Both the position numbers and the translations under genes were made by a program. A stretch of DNA of 32,607 nt from Candidatus Methylomirabilota bacterium (GTDB lineage Bacteria; Methylomirabilota; Methylomirabilia; Methylomirabilales; 2-02-FULL-66-22): the NCBI GenBank assembly GCA_026387775.1, contig JAPLLC010000010.1, positions 1 to 32,607 of the forward strand, written 5' to 3'. Positions 11,640-14,642 of the stretch are shown piece after piece (positions within the stretch are counted from its first letter, which is position 1; every line of letters starts with the position of its first letter). The notes beneath the pieces are model-generated. The model did not search any database and was not told the origin of the DNA. It saw only the letters and a program-made list of their open reading frames with translations.

Positions 11640-12821
11640 TCACGCGGCGGGCCCTCCGTCGAACCGCCCCTGATCGGCCGCGTGCAGCAACCGCCGGCAA
11701 ATCTCGTCGCAGACCAAGAAGCCCTTGGATGTCAGCCGCAGCCTGTCCTCCCGAAAGACCGCCATCCCGTCCTCGATCATCTTGTCCAGGAGGCATCCCC
11801 ACCGCATCTTTAGATCGAAGGCGAAGTCCGCGCTCAAGCCCGTCACGTCGAGTCCGCCGCTCCGGAGACCCAGGAGGATTCGTTCGGCGAGCATCTCTCG
11901 CGGTCCCACCTGCTCCTCACCGCCTACCGGCAAGACGCCCCGTCCCAGCCGTTCAAGATAGGTAGCGAGGTCCGAGATGTTCCACCAGCGCCGGCCGCTT
12001 CGCCCGTCACCGGCCTTCCGAAACGAATGGGCCGACGGGCCGAAGCCGAGATAATCTTCGTGGGACCAGTAGGCGCAGTTGTGTCGGCAGCGGAATCCGG
12101 GGAGGGCGTAGTTCGAGACTTCGTAGTGGTCGTATCCGTGACCGCGCAGCACCTCCATCGTCCGCTCGTACATGTGCGCTTCGAGATCCGTGGGATTCGC
12201 GCGAACCTCGCCGGTCTGTATCTGACCGGCCAGCGGGGTGTGCTCCTCGACGATGAGGCTGTAGGCGGCGACGTGTTGCGGCGCGAGGCCCGCGGCGGTC
12301 GCCAGGTTGTCTTCCCACTGGGCCAGGGTTTGCCCCGGGATCGAGTAGATGAGGTCGAGGCCGAGGTTGTCGAATCCGGCGCTGCGGGCCAGATCGATGA
12401 CGCGGAGCGCCTCCGTCCGGTCGTGGACTCGGCCGAGTGTCCTGAGTTCGGAATCGTGGAACGACTGGATGCCGACACTCAGCCGGTTGACGCCGAGGGC
12501 GCGATAGGCGCGAAGCTTCTCTTCGGTTACCGTGCCGGGGTTCGCCTCCAGCGTCACTTCCGCGTTCGGCGCGATCCTGAAAGCGGCGTGAAGGCGGGAC
12601 AGGATCGACTCGAGCTGTCGGGGAGTGAGAAGCGACGGGGTGCCCCCCCCAAAGAAGAGGGTCTCGAACGTTACGTTTTCGGCGCCTGCTTGGCGGAGCG
12701 AGATCTCCCGCGTCAGCGCTGCGAAGAAGTCCTCGATCAACTCAGTGTTCTCCACCGAGTAGAAGTCGCAATAGAGGCACTTTCGTTCACAGAAGGGGAT
12801 ATGGACGTAAAGAGAGCTCAG
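11640..12821 (-). CDS. hemW: HemW-type radical SAM heme chaperone (coproporphyrinogen oxidase-like)
   Basis: Radical SAM protein of the HemN/HemW family, 393 residues when begun at CTG 12821. It shows LYVHIPFCERKCLYCDFY with the CxxxCxxC [4Fe-4S] cluster motif, FETLFFGGGTPSLL, TLEANPGTV, VNRLSVGIQSF, GLDLIYSIPGQ and YEVSNYALPGFRCRHN, then a C-terminal HemN_C domain. Sequence groups it with HemW, which inserts or carries heme, rather than oxygen-independent HemN. The ORF track starts at GTG 12755, which removes all three cluster cysteines. Upstream the frame is open through VHIPFC to a TAA with no ATG/GTG/TTG; AAAGGGGA lies 7 bases before a CTG, so I take CTG as start. A frameshift from the nearby out-of-frame ATG (12841) is the alternative. 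Same strand as the creatininase gene, 71 bases downstream of it. Confidence 0.88.
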   Translation of the reverse strand: MSSLYVHIPFCERKCLYCDFYSVENTELIEDFFAALTREISLRQAGAENVTFETLFFGGGTPSLLTPRQLESILSRLHAAFRIAPNAEVTLEANPGTVTEEKLRAYRALGVNRLSVGIQSFHDSELRTLGRVHDRTEALRVIDLARSAGFDNLGLDLIYSIPGQTLAQWEDNLATAAGLAPQHVAAYSLIVEEHTPLAGQIQTGEVRANPTDLEAHMYERTMEVLRGHGYDHYEVSNYALPGFRCRHNCAYWSHEDYLGFGPSAHSFRKAGDGRSGRRWWNISDLATYLERLGRGVLPVGGEEQVGPREMLAERILLGLRSGGLDVTGLSADFAFDLKMRWGCLLDKMIEDGMAVFREDRLRLTSKGFLVCDEICRRLLHAADQGRFDGGPAA

Positions 12822-12892
12822 CGCAAGATCCCCTTTCCATTATACGGGGAAGGGTGAACAAGGAGATGGAGATCGGCGTTGGACCCTGTGGC

Positions 12893-13594
12893 CTACTCCC
12901 ACGGTCGTTCAAGCATCTCCCGGGTCTCCTCGACGGCGATCTTCCAGATGGCCTCCATGTCGGCGTCCGGGCGCTGGTGGTAGCCGCCGTAGTTGCCGTC
13001 ACCGAGCAAGGCGCGCAGCGCGACCGGGTCGCACAGCCGCACGCGGTCAAGGTCAACCATGGGCTTCCGCTCGGCCGGCAAAGTGACCCCGGTCAGACGC
13101 GTCCAGGGGAAGTTCTCCATCCACGAGCCGTGCGAGGCGACCGGATCAATCTCCACCACTTGCCCCCAGGTGCGCGGTGCGTTCCACCAGTTGTGGAGAC
13201 GCACCTTCACCCCCGGATGGTCGGCCATCCACTCACCGGCGAGTCCCTGCACCGGCGAGTTGCCGCCGTGGCCGTTCACGAGCAGGATGCGCCGGAAGCC
13301 GCTGTCCGCTAGGGAATCAAGAATGTCGCGGACCACCAAGAGGTAGGTTTCGACGCGCAGCGAGATCGAGCCGGGGTAGGCCCGGAAGTACGGGCTGATT
13401 CCATAGGGGAGCGCGGGAAACACCGGCACCCCGAGCGGCTTCGCGGCCTCGACCGCCACCCGCTCTGCCAGAATCGTATCCGTGCTTAGGCTGAGGTTCG
13501 CATGTTGCTCGGTGCTGCCGAGCGGGAGCACGGCACGATCCTCCCGCCGAAGGGCTGCTTCCACCTGCATCCAGTTCTGTTCGTAGATCCTCAT
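12893..13594 (-). CDS. Creatininase-family amidohydrolase
   Basis: Predicted metal-dependent amidohydrolase, 233 residues. Metal-binding pattern of the creatininase/MftE family: LPLGSTEQHANLSLSTD (Glu29, His31, Asp39), PYGISPYFRAYPGSISL, and LVNGHGGNSP with His109. A later acidic ligand is expected near ASHGSWMENF, where the usual GE.ETS motif is poorly kept. The family hydrolyses cyclic amides (creatinine) or acts in peptide-derived cofactor processing; substrate unknown here. ATG 13594 has GGGAGG 5 bases upstream and begins MRIYEQNW, matching the family start; the 99-codon extension in the ORF track runs across the divergent promoter region. It is divergent from the rraA-like gene and upstream of hemW on the same strand. 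Confidence 0.88.
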   Translation of the reverse strand: MRIYEQNWMQVEAALRREDRAVLPLGSTEQHANLSLSTDTILAERVAVEAAKPLGVPVFPALPYGISPYFRAYPGSISLRVETYLLVVRDILDSLADSGFRRILLVNGHGGNSPVQGLAGEWMADHPGVKVRLHNWWNAPRTWGQVVEIDPVASHGSWMENFPWTRLTGVTLPAERKPMVDLDRVRLCDPVALRALLGDGNYGGYHQRPDADMEAIWKIAVEETREMLERPWE

Positions 13595-13681
13595 CCGACC
13601 TCCCGCTTGTCCCAGGGCCTTGAAGCAACCCGCGTGATGATGACGACCACGAAGCCGTGGTACAACGATCCGAACACGAAT

Positions 13682-13760
13682 AGGATGTTCCGTGGGAGGT
13701 GCAATGTCAAGGGAGGAGAAGACTTTGCCCTTGACAGCATCCCGGCCGTACGGGCATCCT
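13682..13760. promoter_or_regulatory. Divergent promoter/operator with near-perfect dyad symmetry
   Basis: TGTCAAGGG (13705-13713) and CCCTTGACA (13728-13736) are a perfect 9-base inverted repeat with a 14-base centre. Each arm contains an outward-facing TTGACA. On the minus strand CATCCT (13687-13682) follows after 17 bases, and on the plus strand CATCCT (13755-13760) follows after 18. CATCCT keeps the key -11A and -7T of a -10 box. The layout suits two divergent promoters (creatininase and RraA-like genes) under one regulator. Confidence 0.5.
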
Positions 13761-13874
13761 GCGCCGGTTCTGGTGAGGGGAGCCTCCTGGGACTTATTGC
13801 GGCCGGAGAGCCGATCATTCAACCGAGAAGAGACCGCCCCGGCAGTCTCGGATAACAACCCAAAGGAGTGCGAG

Positions 13875-14642
13875 ATGGGAAACGGCAGCAAGCCTGTGCG
13901 ACTGTCCTACGAAGCGCTGCTCGAGCTCAAGCGCTGGAATACGCCGAGCGTGTACAACGGCTGGGAGGCCTTCACCAAGCAGGATCGCACGAAGGGGCAC
14001 TTCAATCTGGAGGAGACGCGCGATTTCATGCCGCAGATGGGCCCCATGGTCGGCTATGCGGTGACCGTGGTCATCGAGCCGAGCAACCCGAGCTATCCGA
14101 AGGCGAACCCGAACGCCTGGAGTGAGTACCGCCGCTATATCGCCGCCGCCCCCGGTCCCAAGATTGTCATTGTTCAGGATCTGGACAAGCCGAACTTCGT
14201 CGGGGCGTATTGGGGCGAGGTCAACAGCAACATCCATCGAGCCCTCGGCTGCGTGGGGAGCATCATCGACGGGGTGATCCGCGATGTGGACGAGATGTGC
14301 AATGCGGGCTTCAAGGCCATAGCGAAACGCACGAGCGTCGGGCACGCATATTCCACCCCCGTCAGATGGAATTGCGAGGTGGATGTGTTCGGGTGTCCAG
14401 TGAAGCCCGGGCAGCTCATTCACGCGGACAAGCACGGGTTCCTGGTCATCCCAGAGGAGGATGAGGCGTATCTTCCCGATGCGTGCCGGTTCATGGACGC
14501 CAACGAGTGCCGCACGCTGATTCCAGCGGCGAGAGCTTCCGCGGGAAAGACGATGGAGGAGGTCCTGCGGGAGATGGACGAAGCGGGAAGGCGGTTCGGC
14601 GAAGCGGTCAAGGAGAAGTTCGGCACCAAGGGGGAAGGGTAG
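13875..14642 (+). CDS. RraA-family protein (HMG/CHA aldolase-like)
   Basis: A 255-residue member of the RraA/dimethylmenaquinone-methyltransferase-like fold. Core motifs are WGEVNSNIHRALGCVGSIIDGVIRDVDEM (active-site-type G..D....RD) and the earlier PKIVIVQDLDKPN strand. The superfamily includes RraA inhibitors of RNase E and class II aldolases acting on 4-hydroxy-4-methyl-2-oxoglutarate, which also decarboxylate oxaloacetate. Length beyond RraA itself (about 160) and the genomic setting favour a catabolic lyase or related enzyme. ATG 13875 is preceded by AAGGAG at 9 bases; the 61 extra codons in the ORF track come from the regulatory region. It is the first gene of a plus-strand series with a ketopantoate-reductase-like enzyme and a peptide-type importer. 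Confidence 0.85.
   Translation: MGNGSKPVRLSYEALLELKRWNTPSVYNGWEAFTKQDRTKGHFNLEETRDFMPQMGPMVGYAVTVVIEPSNPSYPKANPNAWSEYRRYIAAAPGPKIVIVQDLDKPNFVGAYWGEVNSNIHRALGCVGSIIDGVIRDVDEMCNAGFKAIAKRTSVGHAYSTPVRWNCEVDVFGCPVKPGQLIHADKHGFLVIPEEDEAYLPDACRFMDANECRTLIPAARASAGKTMEEVLREMDEAGRRFGEAVKEKFGTKGEG

Follow-up and report, generated by a model that had tools for sequence, protein, structure and literature searches.

The hemW gene of the window, the whole stretch of 32,607 nucleotides from a Candidatus Methylomirabilota bacterium analysed here, is very probably an intact, expressed gene translated from a CUG codon (CTG 12821; 12819..12821, minus strand). The gene with this proposed start (11640..12821, minus strand) would encode a radical SAM heme chaperone of 393 amino acids, as indicated by TIGR00539, Pfam and eight aligned orthologs. 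Such a start has a low prior, because CUG is both rare and weak, comprising 0.024% of bacterial starts and giving 0.86% of AUG output in E. coli (PMC11497404); that of hemW is probably real and a fresh instance of this known rarity. The minus-strand frame reads TAA (12842-12840), TGG, AAA, GGG, GAT, CTT, GCG and CTG (12821), followed by AGC, TCT, CTT, TAC, GTC, CAT, ATC, CCC, TTC and TGT, and it is open from the CTG down to the stop at 11640 with no internal stops. An earlier note on this DNA had described the frame as open upstream to a CTG, 7 bases after AAAGGGGA and bounded by a TAA (12840..12842, minus strand), all of which is confirmed. From the TAA (12842) to the CxxxCxxC cysteines the frame contains no ATG, GTG or TTG, and in the shorter interval from the TAA to the conserved N-terminal block CTG 12821 is the only codon of the ATG/GTG/TTG/CTG or AT[ACT] type.

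Judged by its sequence, the product is a HemW heme chaperone. The CTG-started product scores 283.8 bits against the TIGR00539 profile, above the family cut-off of 205.4, and its Pfam matches are HemN_C and a Radical_SAM match that begins at profile position 1. The [4Fe-4S] ligands are presented by CERKCLYC (CxxxCxxC; 12768..12791, minus strand), the cysteines of which are invariant in the ortholog alignment, and the CxxxCxxC-xF signature of radical SAM enzymes (CERKCLYCDF, residues 11-20) is complete only with the CTG start. A GGGTPS motif is also present, as is HNCAYW (12066..12083, minus strand), which conforms to the HNxxYW motif of HemW proteins (PMC10320005). The gene thus shares the family features of HemW, including E. 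coli HemW, and departs from them in the start codon only, although it groups with Ignavibacteriota and not with its own order.

The open-reading-frame list begins hemW instead at GTG 12755 (12753..12755, minus strand), an internal codon that lies 22 codons into the protein and past the CxxxCxxC (12791-12768). Losing 22 codons (12756..12821, minus strand) in this way lowers the score for the HemW model by 43 bits and shifts the start of the match from position 2 to 27, and the Radical_SAM match would begin at 42 rather than 1. The earlier note had warned that automatic calls lose the iron-sulfur cluster, and the GTG 12755 call does drop CERKCLYC. Its account of this GTG as internal and after the cysteines also stands, except that the codon is the first and not the only in-frame ATG/GTG/TTG, TTG 12740 coming next. 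As a start for hemW, GTG 12755 was rejected on two grounds, the loss of the conserved cysteines and the lack of a Shine-Dalgarno (SD) sequence (anti-SD duplex +0.2 kcal/mol).

Orthologs of hemW occur in two of the six other genomes of the genus (G002 and G003, 62-74% identical), and hemW was not found in G001 or G006, both 93% complete. The nine members of the clade that defines the start register (SH-aLRT 99) all carry NTG at the codon -5 relative to the Val, or its equivalent, of VHIPFC: ATG in L032, L033, L034 and L035, GTG in G003 and L031, TTG in L036, and CTG in G002 and the window. In the orthologue alignment that the earlier note had proposed, CTG 12821 accordingly coincides exactly with the codon at which the other eight members start. 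CTG comprises 5.1% of in-frame codons here, and its falling on the ortholog start codon is more than chance would give. The gene upstream, a creatininase-family member (Pfam Creatininase; 12893..13891, minus strand) 71 nt before the CTG, also precedes hemW in G003.

The codon itself does not appear to be kept as such between species, a point against the CUG start: G003 has GTG, and G002 has its CTG beside a competing GTG at -9 that overlaps the stop of the upstream aminotransferase gene. The SD of that GTG (-3.3) is weaker than that of the CTG (-6.8), and G002 is suggestive only as a parallel case. It nevertheless bears on a second reading, in which a metagenome consensus error or strain mixture has either miscalled the base at 12821, the true codon being GTG, ATG or TTG, or introduced an indel within 12822-12840 that hides an in-frame ATG 12840. 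Assembly error is a real rival, because frameshifted genes were found elsewhere in this draft of 312 contigs with 6.18% contamination: a screen of 0.76 of its 4.46 Mb (615 gene calls) revealed at least two clear cases. These are a MazG gene (L135, minus strand, about 600-1100 of the reverse complement) and a HAD-type hydrolase gene (L134:341-998), each split over two frames and either assembly indels or pseudogenes. A miscall of the first base is the harder rival to dismiss, compared with an indel in an 18-nt stretch, but it would have to account for the CTG at the same codon in G002. The indel version would prepend six residues seen in none of the eight orthologs, would start translation without an SD (+1.0), and leaves unexplained why an ideally spaced SD precedes an NTG at the ortholog start. 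Taken together, a consensus error of either sort is quite unlikely.

The SD sequence AAAGGGGA (12829..12836, minus strand) is properly spaced, 7 nt before the CTG, and its anti-SD duplex of -7.8 kcal/mol compares with a median of -6.9 for 567 predicted starts in the genome. Most internal CTG codons (about 83-88%) have a weaker SD, while 12-17% have one as strong. The anti-SD was assumed to be the usual CCUCC, the assembly having no 16S gene; the enrichment of 6-nt SD motifs (25% at starts compared to 2.4%) fits this choice, though the starts were themselves partly chosen by SD. No unusual initiator turned up when part of the genome was scanned for tRNAs, the scanned part containing no initiator tRNA of any kind.

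The out-of-frame ATG that the earlier note placed at 12841 exists, with its coordinate at 12840, 19 nt upstream of CTG 12821. It opens a 17-codon ORF ending in TGA (12787..12840, minus strand) and has an anti-SD energy of +1.0 kcal/mol. A perfect TATAAT (12844-12839) overlaps this ATG, but a promoter scan found none with a -35 element. A frameshift from ATG 12840 was rejected, for lack of an SD and for the wrong N-terminus it would give. Programmed frameshifting from this ATG into the hemW frame, for which the 17-codon overlap of the two frames leaves room, is extremely unlikely given that the ATG has no SD, that no homolog shows such an arrangement and that no recognised slippery motif was seen by eye. 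Of the two explanations offered in the earlier note, a CTG start or a frameshift from this ATG, the CTG start is favoured by the ortholog register, by the SD energies (-7.8 compared to +1.0) and by codon conservation that begins at the CTG in two congeners.

This conservation is abrupt. Between the CTG and GTG 12755, comparison of the window's genome (G000) with each of G002 and G003 gives 11 identical, 8 synonymous and 2 non-synonymous codons out of 21, whereas none of the ten codons before the CTG is identical in either congener and only one, relative to G002, is synonymous. A protein-coding boundary is placed at or next to CTG 12821 because codon conservation begins there, and the segment upstream of GTG 12755 is, from these comparisons, under selection as protein. 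Over the first 140 codons, dN is about 0.19-0.23 and dS about 1.0-1.2 against the congeners (dN/dS 0.15-0.23). These values weigh against hemW being a decaying or silent gene that has lost its start codon and makes either no product or only the cluster-less one from GTG 12755. Such decay would be tolerable in a genus where G001 and G006 dispense with hemW, and the low output of CUG (PMC11497404) is compatible with it, but the full-length frame is free of stops, the HemW motifs are intact and GTG 12755 has no SD, making decay very unlikely.

If translation does begin at CUG 12821, the SD core AAGGGG, 8 nt upstream, would position the 30S subunit at the codon, and ordinary fMet-tRNA (CAU) would pair with it through the second and third bases. 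The product would then begin fMet-Ser-Ser-Leu-Tyr-Val-His-Ile-Pro-Phe-Cys (fMet-SSLYVHIPFCER). Since IF3 discriminates against CUG, a poor start codon, little HemW output is expected; the first-position contact of CUG with fMet-tRNA is weak (PMC11497404). In this first-position mismatch, and in the weak initiation to be expected from it, hemW resembles the CUG starts described in bacteria (PMC11497404), with the difference that its case is built by comparative genomics in an uncultured lineage. A predicted hairpin (12793..12835, minus strand; MFE -21.2, z -2.15) may lower translation further by masking the SD, and its possible formation counts, with the indels of the draft, among the points against a CUG start. 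Within it, the SD octamer AAGGGGAU (12835-12828) finds a perfect 8-nt complement in AUCCCCUU (12800-12793), which spans the Ile-Pro-Phe codons. Low HemW levels would fit a chaperone that is missing from two congeners.

A single base change, from a GUG such as a congener has or from the AUG of the donor lineage, probably produced the CUG. When 111 HemW proteins were placed in a tree, those of the genus, three in number, fell inside an Ignavibacteriota/Bacteroidota clade (SH-aLRT 97 and 99) and a long way from HemW of the order and class to which the genus belongs, and the simplest reading is that hemW was likely acquired horizontally from an Ignavibacteriota-like donor. The genus loci that nest among Ignavibacteriota are that of the window (11640-12821), L128 and L127/L129. 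That congeners switch between GTG and CTG points to drift rather than to a conserved regulatory role. A conserved CUG acting in regulation was rejected on the GTG of G003, and hemW does not keep a non-canonical start across species in the manner of an IF3-regulated infC.

Non-canonical starts nevertheless appear to recur in the genus, in infC, an M16 peptidase gene and hemW. In three species (G000, G003 and G004; L200:1489 (+), L198 and L199), infC begins with ATA preceded by a strong SD. This ATA, though a different codon, fits with the AUU of E. coli infC and the AUC of Streptomyces infC, which with the GTC of Streptomyces sigR are non-canonical bacterial starts (PMC5472188). Like these genes, hemW is missed or truncated by callers that accept only ATG, GTG and TTG, and SD-led initiation on a poor codon, limited by IF3, would be expected of it. 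Unlike them (PMC5472188), its codon is CUG and is not kept between species, giving no sign of a regulatory role, and its start is a prediction from sequence. The M16 peptidase gene directly behind pnp (L138:4990-6231, plus strand; G000:C10) has an ATC start that overlaps the pnp stop, with an SD of -11.9, and every one of the six readable genomes of the genus, the window's own included, retains this codon (L190, L191 and L193-L196). No ATG, GTG or TTG lies ahead of the M16 domain in the pnp-linked peptidase, and in other families of the order the codon at roughly this place is mostly ATG. The first ATG (5059) lies inside the domain; automatic calls would begin there, and the match would then start at profile position 10 instead of 1.

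Outside the genus, hemW in two Desulfosudis-like genomes (L053 and L058, about 1440-1520) has an ATA behind a GGAG common to both, and the stretch of 23 codons that separates the stop from the conserved block contains no ATG, GTG or TTG; the two appear to represent a second lineage, independent of the first, in which hemW has a non-canonical start. That the genus keeps a small IF3-sensitive set (infC AUA, M16 AUC, hemW CUG), such that HemW would follow the IF3 level with the hairpin as a second gate, is speculative and rather unlikely.

The CTG start of hemW is most probably a well-supported case of a known rarity, and its recognition corrects an annotation that would strip HemW of its iron-sulfur cluster. 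A cleaner example of the same blind spot of gene finders is the AUC start that the M16 peptidase has throughout the genus, and comparative start register, SD strength and codon conservation can together recover non-canonical starts that such programs miss.
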